NCBI GenBank assembly: GCA_015227615.1
Contig: JAALGZ010000003.1
Coordinates: 1,798,001-1,862,000, forward strand
DNA: 64,000 bases
From: Labyrinthula sp. Ha
Lineage: Eukaryota > Sar > Bigyra > Labyrinthulida > Labyrinthulaceae
Reading direction: 5' to 3'
Shown: positions 1 to 29,849 of the stretch, piece by piece
Layout of the letters: each line of letters begins with the position of its first letter
Position numbering within the stretch: the stretch's first letter is position 1
Translations under genes and position numbers: made by a program
The notes under the pieces: generated by a model
What the model was told of the DNA's origin: nothing
Databases searched by the model: none
What the model saw: the letters and a program-made list of their open reading frames with translations, nothing else

Positions 1-1
1 T

Positions 2-1984
2 AATCTTGCAGGTAGCAAGTATTATGGTAGTTTCGATGTTGTTTCTGGCTTCGATCAGTTAGGGATAACGGAAGAAGCTAAAAAATACTTTAACATTGTG
101 TCGGAGCATGGAACTTTTCAGCTCCAATTCGCTCCTATGGGATATCATAGTACCCCAGTATTCTTCCATCAGAGGATGGTTGATGAGGTGGTGGGGGAAA
201 AATTGATAAATCGTTCAAGGAATGGAGTGATTCAATGGATTGATGATAGTTTGCTTTACGCAGATGACTTTAATGAGTATTTAAAGCTATTGGAAATCAT
301 GTTGGCAAACTTAAGGAAAGCTAAGGTTCGTATTAGTCCCGCTAAGTCAATTATTTTGGCGAGGGAAATTGTGTATTGTGGCCGCAAGGTGGCAAATGGC
401 AAATGGAATTTTAAGAAGGAGTATTATTCTAGGATCCTGGATGTGCCAAGATCGGAATATGTTTACCAATTGGCATCAATGATGCATTTGTCTCAATGGT
501 TATCTTTGGCAATTCCAGAGTTAGCCGAATTGAGAAGTGTTATTATGGAATTTTACCCTGAGATGAGAGGTAAAAAATCGGACTTAAAAAGGAAAAATGA
601 GAGGGTTCATTGGTCTTCTGAACTGACAGAGGCCTTTGAAAGATTTGTTAGGACGATTAGTATTGCGGCAAAGCAGAAGTTGAGTCTGTATGATAGAACC
701 CAGGATTTGTTGTTAATAACAGATGCTTCTGGCATGTTCTTCAGTTCGATTCTGATGCAAGCCGATACTCCTCAAAGAGATCGGAAACTTATGGAAAAGA
801 GGGTGGTTCCCATGATGTTCTTTTCTGGGAAATTTCAAGATACCCAGACAAGATGGGGAATTGTGCATAAGGAGTTATATCCTATAGTTAAAACTTTTAA
901 CAGGTTGTCGTATCTGTTACCATTTCATCCAACGCCAATCCAGGTGTATACGGATCATTTGAATTTGAGAGCCATCATAAAAGGGGGATCTAAGATCAAC
1001 CATGGCCACTTGAATAGGTTGCAACGATGGATTTTGACCCTGCAACAAGCGGATGTAGAGTTACATCATATTAAGGGGGAGGACAATGTCTTTGCTGACA
1101 TGCTTTCGCGTTGGGCGGCTACGCCGGAGCGAGAGAAGCAAAGAATTGCCTCTATTAGGATAATGAGAGCGGCGATTCGTCGTGATCGGAGGGAATCGGA
1201 CGCGTCTCTGGGGCCTCAACTCTCGTTGACATCTAGAGAGCGCAAGTACTTTAGGAGGATGTTCAAACATCCATCGGAAACCGATGAGGGTCTGGATCGG
1301 TGGACTCCATTGGAGGATAAACACCCCGATTCTGATCCTGAGTCGTCAGTGGCAGAATTCTCAGACCCTTGGTATGAGAGTGATGGAATAAATCATGGCC
1401 TTAGGCCAGATGGGGGTTTAGAGATAAAAGTTGAAAGACCGAGTCTGGAAGAGGAGTACAGTCGGTTGGCTCTAGTGGATACGGAATCTACCGTATCCCT
1501 AGATGAAATAGGTACATGGGTCTCGTCCCAAATTGTGAAATCTGACCATTCCTCTAGCAAGGAAATTAAGATTGAAGTTCCTAGAGTGGGACTTGACGTG
1601 ATTGTTTCTGAGTTGAGACTATCTCCGAAGAAGCAAAAGGAAAAATTAACTTATGAAAGGATGCGAGCCTTAGATAAGGATCGTATTTCCTGTTTGAATC
1701 CGTATTACCAAGGTGATTGGAAACGGATTTCGGAGAAGGAACTCTTGGATGCCCAAAAGCAGGAAGCTTTGGGCGATGGTATAAAAATTTCGGAGGAGGA
1801 GGGAAGGATTATGATTCCCAAATCATTGTTTGAGCGCCAACTCGTTCACGTTCACTTGGCTAATAGACATGGGTCTAGAGTTCAGGATGTGGCCGAGGTG
1901 AGGCGATTTAGGTGGATAATACCTGCTGGGTATGGTACAAAGGTGTCAGCGGAAACTGTGATGCTGGGATTAAGATCAAATTGA
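2..1984 (+). CDS. pol: Ty3/gypsy polyprotein: reverse transcriptase and RNase H, 5'-partial
   Basis: The reading frame is open from base 2, so the true start lies upstream of the window. The RT palm begins at once (FDVVSGFDQL, about bases 35-64, with the first catalytic Asp). The second catalytic pair is WIDD at bases 236-247, where most Ty3 elements have Y/F-x-DD. RNase H follows, with ITDASG near base 720, VYTDHLNLRAI near 945-977 and NVFADMLSRW near 1085-1114. A long acidic linker (about bases 1180-1650) separates RNase H from the start of the integrase zinc finger (HLANRH, about 1850-1870). The ORF ends on a TGA at 1982-1984, exactly where the first Cys of the CxxC half of that finger is expected, and the same frame continues after it. 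I read this as a disabling mutation and not as a natural protein end. Confidence 0.9.
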   Translation, partial: NLAGSKYYGSFDVVSGFDQLGITEEAKKYFNIVSEHGTFQLQFAPMGYHSTPVFFHQRMVDEVVGEKLINRSRNGVIQWIDDSLLYADDFNEYLKLLEIMLANLRKAKVRISPAKSIILAREIVYCGRKVANGKWNFKKEYYSRILDVPRSEYVYQLASMMHLSQWLSLAIPELAELRSVIMEFYPEMRGKKSDLKRKNERVHWSSELTEAFERFVRTISIAAKQKLSLYDRTQDLLLITDASGMFFSSILMQADTPQRDRKLMEKRVVPMMFFSGKFQDTQTRWGIVHKELYPIVKTFNRLSYLLPFHPTPIQVYTDHLNLRAIIKGGSKINHGHLNRLQRWILTLQQADVELHHIKGEDNVFADMLSRWAATPEREKQRIASIRIMRAAIRRDRRESDASLGPQLSLTSRERKYFRRMFKHPSETDEGLDRWTPLEDKHPDSDPESSVAEFSDPWYESDGINHGLRPDGGLEIKVERPSLEEEYSRLALVDTESTVSLDEIGTWVSSQIVKSDHSSSKEIKIEVPRVGLDVIVSELRLSPKKQKEKLTYERMRALDKDRISCLNPYYQGDWKRISEKELLDAQKQEALGDGIKISEEEGRIMIPKSLFERQLVHVHLANRHGSRVQDVAEVRRFRWIIPAGYGTKVSAETVMLGLRSN

Positions 1985-3343
1985 ATTCACTGTAATAGGG
2001 CACCGAAATTGATAAAAACAAATTTAAGATTGGTTACTGAGGCTAGGAGACCTAAAGAGGTTCTTGTAGCTGATTTTTTGTATATTAATGCTAAAGGTTA
2101 TATTTTGGTTATAACGGATGCATTTTCTCGGTTTTGTTTTCTTCATTACGCTCCTAGAGCTGATGCAGGAACTGTAGTTAGGGCTCTAAGTAAGTTTCAT
2201 ACTTATTGGAGATTAGAGGTGGAGTTTACCCTTGTAACTGATAGGGGCTCCCATTTTGCGAATCAATTACTTGAGTTATTGCAAAAGGAGGTTCGATTTA
2301 CGCATAACTACGCGGTGAGCTATGCTAGTTGGACCAATGGTGAGGTGGAGATTGTCCACAGGAAAGTTCTGAGCTTCTTACGAAGTTTGGTTTCAGAACT
2401 TAGATTGCAATGGGATCAGTGGCCGGATGTGATTGAGTCAGTAATGACTGCAGTCAATGAGGTTCCTCTGCCTAGTAGGAAGCTTCCTGGCATGGAGAAT
2501 GCTCCGAGCGCTAATCTGTTGTTCTTAAATACAGATCCTGCTAGGGAATACATTGAGACGGAAGCTTTTCCCAAGGTAATCTATCGGGAAATTGGAGATA
2601 GGCAGGGTGCGATTAGGGTTGATAAGGATATCCTATATCGTCTGTCGATGGAGTTCCGACGTGAGCTAGATGAGATGCATAGTCAGATAGCTGATTACGT
2701 CTCGCTCATGAAACGGAAAAGGAATGAATATTGGAATAAGCGCCAAGAACGGATAGATAAGGCATGCATTCAGTACGTGCCTGGTGACTGGTGCTTAATT
2801 AGTACAAAGAATACCCCCAGGGAGAATAATAAAATTAAGTTAATTTGGTCGGGTCCGGTTAACATAATTGAGTTACTTTCATCGAATGTGTATAGGGTTA
2901 GACTATTAAATGGGGAATCCCAGATTGTGCATGGAAGTCGATTATACTTTTATGAGCCTGATGGTTTCGTTCCGGATGACTCAATGAGGAAAGTTTTTAT
3001 TAACAATTGGGGTGAACTTGAGGTTCAGAAATTCTTGGATATTAGATACTCGAAAGGAGAATACTTCTTGAGAGTAAGATGGAGGGGTTTCGAACCCATA
3101 GATGATACATGGGAGCCGTTGCTCACCATGTATAGGGATGTGAAAGAGCTTACTCTTAAATTCCTAGGAGAAAAGCGGATTCCAAATAGGAGAAAGTTAG
3201 TTAGGAAGCAAGCGCAAGCTTGGTTGGATAGGAAATTTGCAATAGATGTGTCGGCAGCATGGGTTGGAAGACTCCGCCCGAGCCTGTTGCACTACTTAAG
3301 GGATAAGGAGGACCTTAGTCTCTGGGCGAAACTCCCTGGATGA
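1985..3343 (+). CDS. int: Ty3/gypsy integrase with GPY/F module and chromodomain
   Basis: This frame continues directly from the upstream polyprotein after the TGA at 1982; the first ATG-independent start candidate is a TTG at 2009, so it was probably never a separate protein. Numbered from 2009, the catalytic triad is D22 (VADFLY), D78 (VTDRGSHF) and E114 (NGEVE), the classic D,D-35-E spacing. A GPY/F-like module with KLIWSGP is near residues 277-283. A chromodomain lies at about 337-386 (FLRVRWRGF...DDTWEP), with aromatic residues at the cage positions. In chromoviruses this domain directs integration to chromatin carrying particular histone marks. A basic tail of about 55 residues follows. 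The TGA at 3341-3343 may be the natural pol stop, but the frame stays open beyond it. Confidence 0.9.
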   Translation: MHCNRAPKLIKTNLRLVTEARRPKEVLVADFLYINAKGYILVITDAFSRFCFLHYAPRADAGTVVRALSKFHTYWRLEVEFTLVTDRGSHFANQLLELLQKEVRFTHNYAVSYASWTNGEVEIVHRKVLSFLRSLVSELRLQWDQWPDVIESVMTAVNEVPLPSRKLPGMENAPSANLLFLNTDPAREYIETEAFPKVIYREIGDRQGAIRVDKDILYRLSMEFRRELDEMHSQIADYVSLMKRKRNEYWNKRQERIDKACIQYVPGDWCLISTKNTPRENNKIKLIWSGPVNIIELLSSNVYRVRLLNGESQIVHGSRLYFYEPDGFVPDDSMRKVFINNWGELEVQKFLDIRYSKGEYFLRVRWRGFEPIDDTWEPLLTMYRDVKELTLKFLGEKRIPNRRKLVRKQAQAWLDRKFAIDVSAAWVGRLRPSLLHYLRDKEDLSLWAKLPG

Positions 3344-3352
3344 AAACATTTC

Positions 3353-4420
3353 GTGTCAGGATGGAAGGATTATGATCGTGAGTTGATTAGGAATCTTGTG
3401 TTAAAATTTGGTATGGGAAACTTTGAGCAATTTACGCGATACATGCCCTACAAATCAAAGGCAATGATGTATTCGTACTTGCAACGAAAACTGGGTAGAC
3501 TGGATTTGGCTCCTTTAAGGGGAAAATTCATTGATATTACTAAAGGGACAGAGACCTTAGAAAGGTTTTCTTTGGATAGATTAGAATTTATTAGGAGATT
3601 TGACACGCTGGAGACAGCAAAGTCATTTCTAATGGAGACTTGTCCGGAAGGAGTAAGTCAATCGTATAGGAACGCTTTCGAACGAAAGAAAGAAGAGGTT
3701 AAAACGATGGTGAAAACTTGCGAAGATCGTTTTATTAAACTTTATCAAAATCGGGTGTCGAGAGCTGGGATGAAATGTTCGTATCTCTTATGCTCACTAG
3801 AGCTAAGTCGCAAAAGGTACCTACACGAAGTCTTGGACAAAGATTACCCTAAAGAGTTAGTTTCAAAAATTGAAGGTATAGTTGTTGCTCCAGTGGAGTG
3901 CGAGTTATCTGTGGAAAGTCTTGCCATAGGATTTGAGCACGTACAAGCTTTTGCGCTTAAACGTCTTTGTGGCAACTTGGTTTTGGTTGGTTTTGAAGGG
4001 TGTCCGTTTCGGACAAGAATTTGTGTCTCGCCTCGGGATAAACTATGGTTTACTGCGGACTTGTATAAGTCGGCAATTTTGACTGAGTGGCCTGGAGACA
4101 AGGTGGATTTGTTATTAATGGATCCGCCTTGGGCAATAGGTCAGGCAAATCCTATTAGAGGATTGAGGGTTCCGTATGTGCGGAAACCCGACTCGCAAGT
4201 TTTAAACTTGAGTTTTGACGCTTTGAAGGCTTCCTTCATTGCAATTTGGGTAATCGACCGAACTTGGGAATTGACTCTGAATGAGTTATGGGATAAAGGA
4301 TATGAATTAATTCATGTCATCGAATGGGTAAAGTTGGCACCGAGTGGAAAGATAAGAACCTCGCTGGGATATTATTTTCAGCACTCGGCAGAAGCTTTAC
4401 TAATTTTTGTTCGAAAATAG
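3353..4420 (+). CDS. Myb/SANT-like segment fused to MT-A70 N6-adenine methyltransferase (N-terminal and catalytic part)
   Basis: Residues 4-50 look like a single Myb/SANT repeat (GWKDYDRE...KFGMGNFE...MPYKSKAMM...QRKLGRL). A charged linker follows, then an MT-A70 fold: VDLLLMDPPW with the catalytic DPPW at residues 257-260, an NPIRGLRVPY segment, FIAIWVIDR, and a hydrophobic run that ends at the stop. MT-A70 enzymes (METTL3, METTL14, METTL4 and ciliate MTA1) transfer methyl groups from SAM to N6 of adenine in RNA or DNA. The Myb-like part suggests DNA as target, which is inference. The apparent start is a GTG; the frame is continuous with the integrase ORF through a TGA, so the protein could have been made as a pol extension. 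The TAG at 4418 falls inside the methyltransferase domain, and the domain's C-terminal third is in the next ORF. Confidence 0.8.
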   Translation: MSGWKDYDRELIRNLVLKFGMGNFEQFTRYMPYKSKAMMYSYLQRKLGRLDLAPLRGKFIDITKGTETLERFSLDRLEFIRRFDTLETAKSFLMETCPEGVSQSYRNAFERKKEEVKTMVKTCEDRFIKLYQNRVSRAGMKCSYLLCSLELSRKRYLHEVLDKDYPKELVSKIEGIVVAPVECELSVESLAIGFEHVQAFALKRLCGNLVLVGFEGCPFRTRICVSPRDKLWFTADLYKSAILTEWPGDKVDLLLMDPPWAIGQANPIRGLRVPYVRKPDSQVLNLSFDALKASFIAIWVIDRTWELTLNELWDKGYELIHVIEWVKLAPSGKIRTSLGYYFQHSAEALLIFVRK

Positions 4421-4426
4421 GAAAGA

Positions 4427-4702
4427 ATGGCTAGTGATATTGTGGAGAAGGTTGACTTGTTAAGATGGAAAAAGGTGATCTTTGCGGATCGTCTGGTTGA
4501 AGGGGTTAAGCCCCGTAAGACTTATGAGATATTTGAGAAAATATTCCCAAAAAGATATCTCAAGGTTGAGTTATTTGCGAGATGTGCTAATTTGAAAACC
4601 GGATGGATTCAAATTGGTTTAGAAGCTGATCCTAGGGTTTCCGATTTGGTTTTTGGTTGCTACAGACCAGAAAAGTCACTTGCGGAAAAGACTACTGAGT
4701 AG
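4427..4702 (+). CDS. C-terminal third of the MT-A70 methyltransferase, separated by an in-frame TAG
   Basis: This 91-residue frame is in phase with the upstream methyltransferase ORF, with only a TAG and two codons between the stop and this ATG. It contains the two C-terminal signatures of MT-A70 proteins: KPRKTYEIFEKIFP (residues 28-41) and VELFAR..NLKTGWIQIG (48-64), matching the conserved 'KP.E....I', 'ELFGR' and 'GW...G' elements that complete the substrate- and SAM-binding core. It cannot be a functional enzyme by itself. The simplest reading is one ancestral ORF broken by a nonsense mutation. A split-subunit enzyme is possible but less likely. It ends 9 bases before the polypurine tract, so the methyltransferase is the last gene of the element. 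Confidence 0.75.
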   Translation: MASDIVEKVDLLRWKKVIFADRLVEGVKPRKTYEIFEKIFPKRYLKVELFARCANLKTGWIQIGLEADPRVSDLVFGCYRPEKSLAEKTTE

Positions 4703-4711
4703 TCTTTTAGC

Positions 4712-4726
4712 AGAGGAGGAGGGGGA
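4712..4726 (+). other. Polypurine tract (plus-strand primer) of the retrotransposon
   Basis: Fifteen purines in a row (AGAGGAGGAGGGGGA) lie immediately before a TG that begins the presumed 3' LTR, the expected position for the primer of second-strand cDNA synthesis in LTR retrotransposons. Confidence 0.8.
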
Positions 4727-5130
4727 TGTGTGAGTGTTTTCCTCTATTATCTGTGGTAATTAATACTTATAGTGTAGTAAATAGGTTTACAATTTTAAGT
4801 TGTTTATTTAGTCTTAGGGTATATTTAGGTAGTTCTAGAGAATGGCCAATGCGGCCAATGTTTTAAGGTTTAACAACCAACAAAAGATAAATCATAGATT
4901 ATTGTGCTTGTTTCGCCAAGTATCTGGTTAATAATCTACTTATCTTACTTACAAAGGTTATAATAGTTAATTTGGGCTTGAACTCAACAACTTAGTTTCG
5001 TCTAGGTTTGTTCAAGGATAAAATCTGGTTACGTTTGGTAGATCTAGTAATTCTTTCGCGAGTTACTTTTTCTTTGGAAATTAGTGTAAAGGCTATTGAT
5101 CACTCGTAGATCGATAAAATACATATTACA
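4727..5130 (+). repeat. 3' LTR of the Ty3/gypsy element (right edge approximate)
   Basis: It begins TGTGTGAG directly after the polypurine tract. The part near 4844-4860 holds a direct duplication of GGCCAATG (two CCAAT boxes), a plausible promoter element in U3. The right end is set at a CA near 5130 only by the TG...CA convention. No 5' LTR or target-site duplication is available in the window to confirm it. Confidence 0.6.
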
Positions 5131-17380: not shown

Positions 17381-18544
17381 ATGAAAAGAGACGGTACAAG
17401 AGAACCTGCAAACAAATATCACAACTTTCCTTGTTTAAGGTTTCTGTTCCCTTTAATTTTTATTGCATTCCTTGCTGTAGAAGTTTCTAATCTTCGTGCT
17501 CGACAAGTACGCAGTTCTGATCTCATATCAAAATCCGTGATTGAACTGGATTTAACGGAAGTTCACTCAGACCAAGGGCCAAGAATTCGCGAGGATAGAT
17601 TTACTATTCTTTTATCTACTTATGATAGAGATGAAAGCTTATATGATAATTTGTATCACTACCTTCATTGTCCTTTTGTAGAAGAAGTTTTTATAGTTTG
17701 GTTCGATATAGATAGGATAGTTCCTTCTGAATTTGACATATTTGCTAATGCAGCTGCATTTCCTGAGATAAAACGATTACCAAAAATAACTTTTCTTCAT
17801 TTTACAGAACATTTACTCTCGAACAGGCTTCTTGTTCCTCCATCTGGTTTCAAAACACGAGCGGTTTTTTCTGTGGATGATGATGTCAGAATTGATTTGA
17901 AACTTCTTGAAACCGGGTTTAAAATTTGGTATTCTTCTTATATTGAAGCTATAGTTGGTTTTGAACCTCGTTTCTTTGATTTACATGGTTCTGGACAAGG
18001 TTATACTCCAATGTATAGTTGTCATCAATGCGTCTATAATACAGTTTGGACTACAAAAGGTGCTTTTCTTGACCAGAAATATTTCAGTGAAGTTTGGAAA
18101 ACTAAATATACTTCTGTAATGGACCTTGTTAAAAAATATAGAACTGGTGAAGATATGTTATTATCATATGTTATTGCTGCATCAAATTACGAATCTGGTT
18201 TACCAATAAAAACTATTTCTGTACAACAGTATTCAGATTTTAGATCTTTTAAAGCTAAACCGATGAAAGGAAAAATTTCTTCTGAAAGGATAAAATTAGT
18301 AAAACAAACACATCTCAGACAGAAAGTTAAACCAAAAACAAAGTCGTTGCACAAAACAACAAGCCAGTATAGACCAGATATAAAAAGAGCTCTTGAAAAA
18401 CTTTCTAACCAATATTTTGGAGTAAAAACTGAGGTGTTTATGCTGGAGAACGAGTGGTATTTTGTTAATGGTAATCTTGAAGTGATTTCAAGTAAGAATG
18501 TTTGCGAAACTAGATTAAAATCACAGCTCGTATGCACGCACTAG
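17381..18544 (+). CDS. GT64 (exostosin C-terminal/EXTL2-like) glycosyltransferase, paralogue 1
   Basis: The ATG at 17381 begins a 387-residue type II membrane protein: basic N-terminus, membrane segment at about 19-35, short stem, then a GT64 domain from residue 71. The domain has RFTILLSTYDRDESL at the start, the metal-binding VDDD at 165-168 (AVFSVDDDVRID), GFEPRFFD, and a GEDMLLSYVIA segment at about 256-266 where the family has its catalytic acidic residues. GT64 enzymes add HexNAc to heparan-type linkers in animals and act on sphingolipids or wall glycans in plants. The donor here is unknown. About 100 residues after the domain form a basic region and a second conserved block shared with the paralogue. 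Residues 71-270 are almost identical at the DNA level to the copy at 28.7 kb, while residues 1-70 are not. Confidence 0.9.
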   Translation: MKRDGTREPANKYHNFPCLRFLFPLIFIAFLAVEVSNLRARQVRSSDLISKSVIELDLTEVHSDQGPRIREDRFTILLSTYDRDESLYDNLYHYLHCPFVEEVFIVWFDIDRIVPSEFDIFANAAAFPEIKRLPKITFLHFTEHLLSNRLLVPPSGFKTRAVFSVDDDVRIDLKLLETGFKIWYSSYIEAIVGFEPRFFDLHGSGQGYTPMYSCHQCVYNTVWTTKGAFLDQKYFSEVWKTKYTSVMDLVKKYRTGEDMLLSYVIAASNYESGLPIKTISVQQYSDFRSFKAKPMKGKISSERIKLVKQTHLRQKVKPKTKSLHKTTSQYRPDIKRALEKLSNQYFGVKTEVFMLENEWYFVNGNLEVISSKNVCETRLKSQLVCTH

Positions 18545-27490: not shown

Positions 27491-28685
27491 TCCGACCCCT
27501 AGTTCTAGATGCTCGCAAAACTGCGAAAAATCAGGTTTACAAAGGTTGTTTAAGCAAGAAAGAAACAAACTGCATCAATATGCCCTATCCAATTATTAGT
27601 GGTTTGTTGCGGTAGCTGTAGCTAGACAATTAGAACTTGAATCGATGCCTTTAAGAATCTTGATGTAAGAATACTTGAAGCTGAGATGCCACTCTTTGAG
27701 AAGCTTAGATATAACACGGAGGATGGATAAGGTAAAGAGAGGTAACATGAAACTTGTTTCAGTCAGGATGAGAAAGAAAGGAATAGTAGGAAGGGATCCT
27801 GGTTTTCACCGGCACTTATTCGCCCTTACATCTCATTATTGCTAGGTAGGTATTTTCTGAATAACAGAGAACATGTTTATAATAGTTAGCGCTGTAGAGA
27901 AATTTAATTCAAGTGTCGTCAGATAGATTAAGTACTTGCCGTGTAAACTATTAAAAGCAAAAAACTGTTGGTACTTTTTCTCTATCAGTTTCACATGAAG
28001 AAAAGCAACATGAATCTTGTTTAGTTCACCAACTGTTCTTGCTCCCCTTCATTGTCCAAAGTAACTCCAACAATAACCTGAGTGCACTTCTTTTATCTTA
28101 AATCAAACACAATGAGTTTCAAAATCTAAAAACACATTTTTTTAATTTCCTGATGGTTTGTGAATTATTCTTATTTATATTATCAAACTCGTAATTCCTA
28201 GTTTACTTGATCACAAGTACCATTAATGAAAACCATGCTCCATGGAATATTGATATACACAATTCCTTGCTATAACTAAATTCCCTGGTAAAAACAGGTG
28301 AATATCAATACCATAGTATATATAGGCGTGGTTATCGAGATAACAAAAGCTTCTCGAGATGGATTTTATTGAAATATCTATAAGACGAGATTAGGCGTAT
28401 TTAACGGCAGAGAGAGTCTTAATGAGATTTTCTCGACTAGAAGTCTCTCGTTAAACACATCCGATTGTTACACTTTCAAACGGTAATTTATAGTACAATA
28501 TTATGAAAACCTGAAACACAACTTTAGAACTGAGTTACCACAAATTACGCGATTATTTAAAATAAATATCTATACACCCAGAATACGATTCATTTTTCAA
28601 CAATTTTTATCATATAAAATATGAATCGAATATATTTATGTGTTTAGGGTTGCATATGACCAAGTTAATAAACGTAGAACGAAGT

Positions 28686-29849
28686 ATGAAGAAAGACAGT
28701 ACAAAAGAACGTTCTAATAAGTATGCCAAATGTTATAGTTTAAAACTTCTTTTCCCATTAACTTTGTTTATATTTCTGACAGATCAACTTATTAATACAG
28801 GTGTGGAACCACTGCGAAATCCTGATTTCATATCTAAGTCATTGATTGAACTGGATTTAATAGAAGTCGAAATCGTACAGCGAAATTCTGTACGAGAGGA
28901 TAGATTTACTATTCTTTTATCTACTTATGATAGAGATGAAAGCTTATATGATAATTTGTATCACTACCTTCATTGTCCTTTTGTAGAAGAAGTTTTTATA
29001 GTTTGGTTCGATATAGATAGGACAGTTCCTTCTGAATTTGACATATTTGCTAATCCAGCTGCATTTCCTGAGATAAAGCGTTTACCAAAAGTAACTTTTC
29101 TTCATTTTACAGAACATTTACTCTCGAACAGGCTTCTTGTTCCTCCATCTGGTTTCAAAACACGAGCGGTTTTTTCTGTGGATGATGATGTCAGAATTGA
29201 TTTGAAACTTCTTGAAACCGGGTTTAAAATTTGGTATTCTTCTTATATTGAAGCTATAGTTGGTTTTGAACCACGTTTCTTTGATTTACATGGTTCTGGA
29301 CAAGGTTATACTCCAATGTATAGTTGTCATCAATGCGTCTATAATACAGTTTGGACTACAAAAGGTGCTTTTCTTGACCAGAAATATTTCAGTGAAGTTT
29401 GGAAAACTAAATATACTTCTGTAATGGATCTTGTTAAAAAATACAGAACTGGTGAAGATATGTTATTATCATATGTTATTGCTGCATCAAATTATGAAAT
29501 TGGCTTACCAATAAAAACTATTTCTGTACAACAGTATTCAGATTTTAGACCTTTTAAACTTCAACAGATGAAAGGAAAAATTTATTCTGAAAGGATAAAA
29601 TTAGTAAATCAAACACATCTCCGACATAAAATCAAACCAAAGACAAAGTCGTTGCACAAAACAACAAGCCAGTATAGACCAGATATAAAAAGAGCTCTTG
29701 AAAAACTTTCTAACCAACATTTTGGAGTAAAAACTGAGGTGTTTATGCTGGAAAACGAGTGGTATTTTGTTAATGGTAATCTTGAAGTAGTCTATAGCAG
29801 GAATCTATGCGGAACAAAATTGAAAGAGGAACTTGTATGCAAGCACTAG
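28686..29849 (+). CDS. GT64 (exostosin C-terminal/EXTL2-like) glycosyltransferase, paralogue 2
   Basis: I choose the ATG at 28686 because it aligns with the start of paralogue 1 (MKKDSTKE against MKRDGTRE); an upstream TTG at 28638 would add 16 unsupported residues. The protein is then 387 residues, the same length as paralogue 1. It has the same layout: membrane segment near 19-34, GT64 domain from about 71 with VDDD at 165-168, basic C-terminal region and conserved end block. Bases 28896-29493 differ from 17591-18188 at only 9 of 598 positions by my count, without indels. The N-terminal 70 residues are only about 45 % identical. Upstream, a short segment near 28577 resembles 17272 (CGATxCxTTTTTCAACA), which may be a shared promoter element. 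Confidence 0.9.
   Translation: MKKDSTKERSNKYAKCYSLKLLFPLTLFIFLTDQLINTGVEPLRNPDFISKSLIELDLIEVEIVQRNSVREDRFTILLSTYDRDESLYDNLYHYLHCPFVEEVFIVWFDIDRTVPSEFDIFANPAAFPEIKRLPKVTFLHFTEHLLSNRLLVPPSGFKTRAVFSVDDDVRIDLKLLETGFKIWYSSYIEAIVGFEPRFFDLHGSGQGYTPMYSCHQCVYNTVWTTKGAFLDQKYFSEVWKTKYTSVMDLVKKYRTGEDMLLSYVIAASNYEIGLPIKTISVQQYSDFRPFKLQQMKGKIYSERIKLVNQTHLRHKIKPKTKSLHKTTSQYRPDIKRALEKLSNQHFGVKTEVFMLENEWYFVNGNLEVVYSRNLCGTKLKEELVCKH

Follow-up and report, generated by a model that had tools for sequence, protein, structure and literature searches.

A p1-type domain and an MTA1/AMT1-type MT-A70 domain in the polyprotein of Ty3/gypsy chromoviruses of Labyrinthula

Chromoviruses are Ty3/gypsy retrotransposons with a chromodomain, which lies C-terminal in the integrase. 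Captured methyltransferases have been described in retroelements, including a Dnmt3 in a gypsy element of Klebsormidium (KnitGypsy-Dnmt3) and DNMTs in elements of Symbiodinium (SymbioDIRS-Dnmt3 and SymbioLINE-Dnmt), according to passages of two reports (PMC5890265; PMC6338049). The capture of cytosine methyltransferases by retrotransposons, which an earlier note on the DNA studied here had mentioned, is thus on record with Ty3/gypsy elements included, and the Ka/Ks given for KnitGypsy is below 0.2 (passages of PMC5890265). The host system closest to the one considered here is the Tetrahymena MTA1c complex (AMT1-AMT7-AMTP1-AMTP2; PDB 7yi8, 8xyl, 9u9e). In the relevant passages of a 2025 survey, 6mA of AMT1-bearing protists is associated with activation and is located downstream of transcriptional start sites, 6mA in Trichomonas is not enriched in transposable elements, the MT-A70 families are relatively static after early eukaryote diversification, and 6mA is treated as a host system; its passages on the relevant terms mention no retroelement with MT-A70 or p1 (PMC12695648). 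Our search of the open-access literature found no retroelement with MT-A70 or p1 either.

The copy in the window

The window is a 64,000-nucleotide stretch of the genome of Labyrinthula sp. Ha (contig JAALGZ010000003.1, positions 1,798,001 to 1,862,000). Its positions 1-5118 hold the 3′ part of a Ty3/gypsy chromovirus of ~9.9 kb, which starts 4.8 kb upstream of the window, ends at window position 5118 and has an MT-A70 domain as its last domain. Comparison of the LTR pair placed the 5′ LTR upstream of the window (C77:1793195-1793586) and the 3′ LTR on the plus strand at 4727..5118, the two being 98.2% identical across 392 bp; ATAC precedes the former and follows the latter. Between them, also on the plus strand, Pfam finds in one frame the order reverse transcriptase, RNase H, integrase rve, chromodomain and MT-A70, with the 3′ part of the reverse transcriptase and the RNase H, both of Ty3/gypsy type, at 1..1981 (RVT_1 1.6e-10, RT_RNaseH 4.3e-16), the integrase core at 2045..2314 (1.1e-10; matched at C77:1800045 in the genome integrase search) and the chromodomain at 3020..3121 (3.2e-5 and 24.2 bits against a cut-off of 25.1, with 27.3 bits in the genome search). 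A p1-type Myb/SANT DNA-binding domain follows at 3359..3535, and then the MT-A70 domain of MTA1/AMT1 type at 4106..4624 (70.7 bits for MTA1 versus 22.8 for METTL3), with the catalytic motif DPPW at 4121..4132 and, by eye, a polypurine tract at 4711..4726 ahead of the 3′ LTR, both as the earlier note had read them. The order reverse transcriptase, RNase H, integrase is that of Ty3/gypsy and not of Ty1, in this copy and in the other stretches that we read. A DIRS-Dam retroelement, with a tyrosine recombinase and a Dam-type enzyme, was ruled out, as Pfam gives an rve integrase and an MT-A70 domain.

The composition that the earlier note had proposed, Ty3/gypsy with chromodomain, Myb-like segment and MT-A70, was borne out by Pfam and by the order found across the family. 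Its single frame stands insofar as the domains share one frame; that frame is broken in this copy by three in-frame stops, TGA at 1982..1984, TGA at 3341..3343 and TAG at 4418..4420. The last of these splits the MT-A70 domain, which Pfam matches in two open stretches, 3344-4417 (6.2e-9) and 4421-4699 (4.4e-5). The upstream half of the element comprises three open stretches in two frames (L009), and its aspartic protease lies in the usual place, before the reverse transcriptase. Elsewhere in the window, a pair of open frames encoding 387 and 403 amino acids (17381-18544 and 28638-29849) look very similar by eye and are probably a recent host gene duplication.

Abundance, structure and selection of the family

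Pooled profile searches found at least 323 distinct MT-A70 places in the 50.8-Mb genome, a number that counts the host AMT1 gene as well as fragments and broken copies; the genome search with Pfam MT-A70 gave at least 150 scored matches, many of them inside frames longer than 1700 amino acids. Among 148 chromodomain matches (from 150 of 275 candidates scored), 127 are followed on their own strand by an MT-A70 match at 0.9-1.9 kb, none has one upstream or on the opposite strand, and 95 are followed by both a p1-like segment and MT-A70. Two of the 21 chromodomains without a listed MT-A70 (on C96 and C95) lie at a contig end. The p1-like places behave similarly: among the matches listed, MT-A70 follows at a distance of 0.2-2.5 kb in 164 of 186 and precedes in 1, and 14 have no MT-A70 or chromodomain close by, both host p1 genes being in this group. 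The co-occurrence of chromodomain and MT-A70 is far beyond chance.

Integrases divide more evenly: among the 150 matches listed, 79 have an MT-A70 match and 71 have none listed. We scored 12 of these 71 with the element integrase profile, to which its own members score ~260-310 bits: ten reached 36-60 bits, including L054 and L061, which group with a Copia element in the tree, and the other two (L064 and L065, at 219-221 bits) are Ty3. Another of the 71, L066, scored 35.5 bits and is Copia by gene order. L066 (C99:90500-96500) has a single open frame of 1350 amino acids, and the integrase matches at C77:1679164, C99:222351 and C128:69054 equal it in score and frame length.

We read 20 stretches of 8-10 kb, picked mostly for long frames. 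A single uninterrupted frame of 2061-2655 amino acids runs from the reverse transcriptase through MT-A70 in 14 of them, and tblastn with the diverged window queries found all six domains in 17, the remaining three being L021, L023 and L009, which flanks the window upstream. The Myb-like segments of L021 and L023 were found by other means, and the chromodomain of L021 is weak (14 bits, under the Pfam cut-off); the integrase is followed by a chromodomain that reaches or exceeds this threshold in 5 of 6 pieces of the Labyrinthula genome. An LTR pair lies within 16 of the 20 stretches, with identities of 93.5-100%. Among 15 LTR pairs, a 4-bp repeat is exact at the boundary given by blast in 4, appears only when the ends are shifted in 8 and is absent in 3. 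On C88, an element of the L024 type (L024, C88:2133800-2143700) is nested in the LTR of a window-type element and flanked by a 4-bp duplication. These elements are a retrotransposon family and not an accident or a chance fusion, and the check for genome copies that the earlier note had proposed turned up copies with the same order, intact frames and methyltransferases under selection.

Several features of these stretches vary. A DSGA protease motif lies behind the integrase, chromodomain and p1-like segment and before the methyltransferase in L010-L018, L021, L023 and P0001, an odd position for Ty3/gypsy; in L019, L020, L024, L026 and L028 the protease precedes the reverse transcriptase as usual. 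Palindromes made up of the last bases of the 5′ LTR and those that follow occur in several of L010-L028 (TATTGAATTCAATA, TATTGGATCCAATA, CAATATTG), and an ordinary tRNA-type TGG start is not obvious by eye at most LTR-internal junctions of L010-L028, so the priming of these elements may be unusual.

The methyltransferase is under purifying selection. Median pairwise Ka/Ks values of the MT domain in three lineages were 0.10 (window type, 35 of 36 pairs), 0.16 (9 of 10) and 0.18 (10 of 10), and two lineages with a single pair gave 0.27 and 0.17; the L019 type is mostly saturated, with one usable pair at 0.16 and a pooled pN/pS of 0.40 for the MT domain. Across five L012-type copies, Ka/Ks was 0.087 for MT, 0.123 for the p1-like segment, 0.112 for integrase, 0.084 for RNase H, 0.024 for the chromodomain and 0.198 for the protease, and across six window-type copies it was 0.095 for MT, 0.077 for the p1-like segment, 0.063 for the chromodomain and 0.336 for the linker. 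The MT and p1-like domains are thus about as constrained as the integrase (Ka/Ks 0.08-0.12). The earlier note had also considered copies lacking the methyltransferase and a host gene fragment joined to the element by chance; the copies found here are of the opposite kind, with MT-A70 behind 127 of 148 chromodomains. The broken state of the window copy would suit a passive passenger or a chance joining of host gene fragments, but the hundreds of places, the constrained domains and the largely matching trees described below speak against it, and abundance and Ka/Ks rule out the chance fusion; we give this explanation practically no credence.

Identity and history of the p1-type and MT-A70 domains

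The earlier note had described the segment ahead of MT-A70 as Myb/SANT-like. Pfam Myb matches 9 of the 14 segments in our alignment A2 (best 4e-7) and gives no match to the Myb/SANT segment of the window copy, which is a member of A2, and the description can be made more specific. The best match of the A2 profile is Tetrahymena p1 (74.9 bits, 3.6e-20, 80 amino acids), ahead of SNAPC4 (55.5 bits) and c-Myb (36), and the p1 alignment continues from the Myb fold into QRLLGQQSLGDFMGLQIDLEAV. Two p1-like genes belong to the host itself, L051 (349 amino acids, 121 bits to Tetrahymena p1) and L052. In a set of 33 sequences, 28 segments match host p1 at an E value of 0.01 or better; the other 5 are host AMT1 (L008) and four stretches in which the Myb part is largely or wholly missing. 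L012-L016 align with host p1 residues 22-156 at 34% (E 1e-14), and in the window-type lineage only ~60 amino acids of Myb align to host p1, weakly (E 1e-4 to 1e-3, with 1.3e-4 for the window segment). These alignments make the Myb-like segment a homologue both of host p1 and of the p1 protein that serves MTA1 as its DNA-binding partner. The p1 lysines K44/K46/K47 matter for MTase activity, according to passages of PMC9852454, whose numbering we use; they are kept in 3, 0 and 6 of 14 element segments, and host p1 keeps K44 only. With so few of these lysines kept, the DNA-binding surface would not be transferable one to one.

The MT-A70 domains of the elements belong to the Pfam family and have its fold. 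By sequence, in five element pieces, they are closer to MTA1 than to METTL3, METTL14 or METTL4, and capture of METTL3/METTL14 or METTL4, which score lower than MTA1, was ruled out. The AMT1 orthologue clade excludes the elements with support of 96/94 in a tree of 34 rows and 99/98 in one of 22, so the comparison that the earlier note had called for places the element enzymes nearest MTA1/AMT1 and outside that clade; on these trees they are AMT1-like and not AMT1 orthologues. With a p1-type segment and an MTA1-type enzyme, one polyprotein holds two of the four MTA1c subunits. An enzyme that places m6A on the RNA of the element itself, to serve its stability, export or packaging or to evade surveillance, would be in keeping with three points: METTL3 is an MT-A70 protein, the predicted fold of the element domain fits METTL3 almost as closely as MTA1, and an m6A RNA demethylase has been described in a Ty3/gypsy element (passages of PMC9289625). 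MTA1, however, scores 1.6 to 3 times the bits of METTL3 on the element pieces, METTL3-type proteins form a separate clade (100/100), and a role on RNA is made less likely by the partner domain, p1, which comes from a DNA enzyme; we regard it as quite improbable.

The 47 aligned rows, from 44 distinct places, all have the catalytic Asp and Arg357; Asn360 is kept in 45 rows, Ser332 in 27 and Asn370 in only 7. The full DPPW is present in 33 of the 47 rows and missing from 12 of the 44 distinct places. It is replaced by DPAW, DPPY, DPPG or DLPF in L001-L007, L010, L011, L017, L018, L024, L026 and L028, within intact frames in L011, L018, L024, L026 and L028, and these variants recall the eroded NALW motif of MTA9. 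We found no second MT domain in the elements. Lineages with DPPW might pair in trans with those with DPAW or DLPF, by analogy with MTA1 and MTA9, and the 6mA landscape of the host would then be made partly by elements. Lineages with an eroded motif would suit a docking module that brings the integration complex to active promoters or to the 6mA machinery of the host (MTA9, p2), with catalysis secondary or lost in some lineages. In line with such targeting, the p1-MTA1 segment comes after the integrase and chromodomain, p1 and the N-terminal helix of MTA1 assemble the complex (passages of PMC9852454), and predicted models of the element enzyme contain a helix aligned to that of MTA1. Yet the catalytic Asp and Arg357 are invariant across very diverged lineages and the constraint on the MT domain equals that on RNase H, and we consider docking an unlikely main role.

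The integrase and MT trees largely agree. L010/11/17, L012/16/18, the union of these two, L021/23 and L025/27 are lineages in both; they conflict over L022, placed with L019 and L020 by the integrase tree (100/100) but outside them by the MT tree, and over the window copy, which is placed differently. In the 34-row MT tree the elements need 3 changes and form one group in 0% of 200 bootstrap trees. A second tree keeps 22 of the 34 rows, dropping L043, L044 and L049 (long branches), the window row and near-copies; in it the elements need 2 changes and form one group in 26% of bootstrap trees. The topology test does not reject a single element clade on this 22-row set (p-AU 0.436), but the free trees do not show such a clade. 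Recent capture of host AMT1 is not supported: L008 clusters with the AMT1s of thraustochytrids (89/82) and stands apart from the elements. The largely agreeing trees favour one old capture followed by co-inheritance and fast divergence, which would be the simplest reading and is not proof; there may also have been several captures. One MTA1-like frame of 285 amino acids on a long branch (L043, C24:1146200-1147300), with a p1-like match ~1.1 kb upstream, could be an element remnant or a domesticated copy.

Protein and viral-contig searches for such elements in other species, whose length limits could miss relatives, returned only EukProt proteins (P0001; P0122-P0124) that are near-identical to those of Labyrinthula itself or annotated in the same style, lone MT-A70 proteins and one contig of the virus collection (L069). 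On that contig the MT-A70 stands alone, a frame close to it resembles a cytosine methyltransferase by eye, and none of the four listed frames is that of a retroelement.

Proposed function and comparison with known systems

Building on the observed order, abundance and homology of the domains, their active-site residues, selection and largely matching trees, and the young intact copies, we think that the captured 6mA module most likely methylates adenines in DNA handled by the element, a reading that we favour with some reserve. The module behind the integrase and chromodomain consists of a p1-type domain and then an MTA1/AMT1-type MT-A70 domain with its N-terminal helix and, being borne by pol, would sit in the pre-integration complex. 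Its putative catalysis, presumably with a host MTA9-type partner, would act on DNA, either the cDNA in that complex or the new copy plus its target, and these would be the places where 6mA is written. As for purpose, 6mA would label element DNA in the manner of active host promoters; a marked LTR might thereby stay permissive, or element DNA might pass as host DNA. We offer more tentatively, as something we would sooner doubt than expect, an element that is reader and writer at once, in which the chromodomain reads chromatin, p1 holds on to DNA and promoter-type 6mA is written on the element's own copies by the MTA1 part. The module's place in pol alongside the reverse transcriptase and integrase would also suit counter-defence, in which 6mA on cDNA shields it from a host nuclease or silencing system that reads unmethylated DNA as foreign; the authors of PMC5890265 make a similar proposal for DNMT retroelements in passages of that paper, and for the present elements we rate this as very improbable.

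That a large family of elements has both a DNA-adenine methyltransferase and its DNA-binding partner in its own protein suggests that elements may mark DNA for themselves. Two 6mA subunits under strong selection have been spread to hundreds of places by a retrotransposon clade, and 6mA function becomes testable from the parasite's viewpoint by comparing copies with and without the active motif: an effect of the mark on the LTR promoter or on cDNA should show in the element copies.

Methyltransferase retroelements are already known, and the new point is the fusion of two 6mA-complex subunits in a retroelement. Compared with ordinary chromoviruses, the elements have the extra p1-MTA1 module and, in one lineage, a protease behind the integrase. 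KnitGypsy-Dnmt3, SymbioDIRS-Dnmt3 and SymbioLINE-Dnmt likewise carry a captured DNA methyltransferase under purifying selection, but their enzymes are cytosine methyltransferases, and the passages on them describe no captured DNA-binding partner (PMC5890265); the present family would be their adenine-side, eukaryotic-type counterpart. DIRS elements with a Dam-like N6-adenine methyltransferase share with it an adenine enzyme in a retroelement and differ in having a tyrosine recombinase and a bacterial-type Dam in place of a eukaryotic MT-A70, with p1 unmentioned in the passages concerned (PMC5890265, PMC6338049). The AlkB m6A RNA demethylase of an orchid Ty3/Gypsy element is also an adenine-methylation enzyme in Ty3/gypsy, but it is an RNA eraser in an additional reading frame (passages of PMC9289625), whereas the enzyme here is a putative writer. 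Tetrahymena MTA1c has, like the elements, an MTA1-type domain with an N-terminal helix and a p1-type Myb-like domain that extends past the Myb fold. In the ciliate complex, however, p1 and MTA1 are separate host proteins that act with MTA9 and p2, whereas in the elements p1 and MTA1 are fused in pol, with a protease between the two parts in one lineage.
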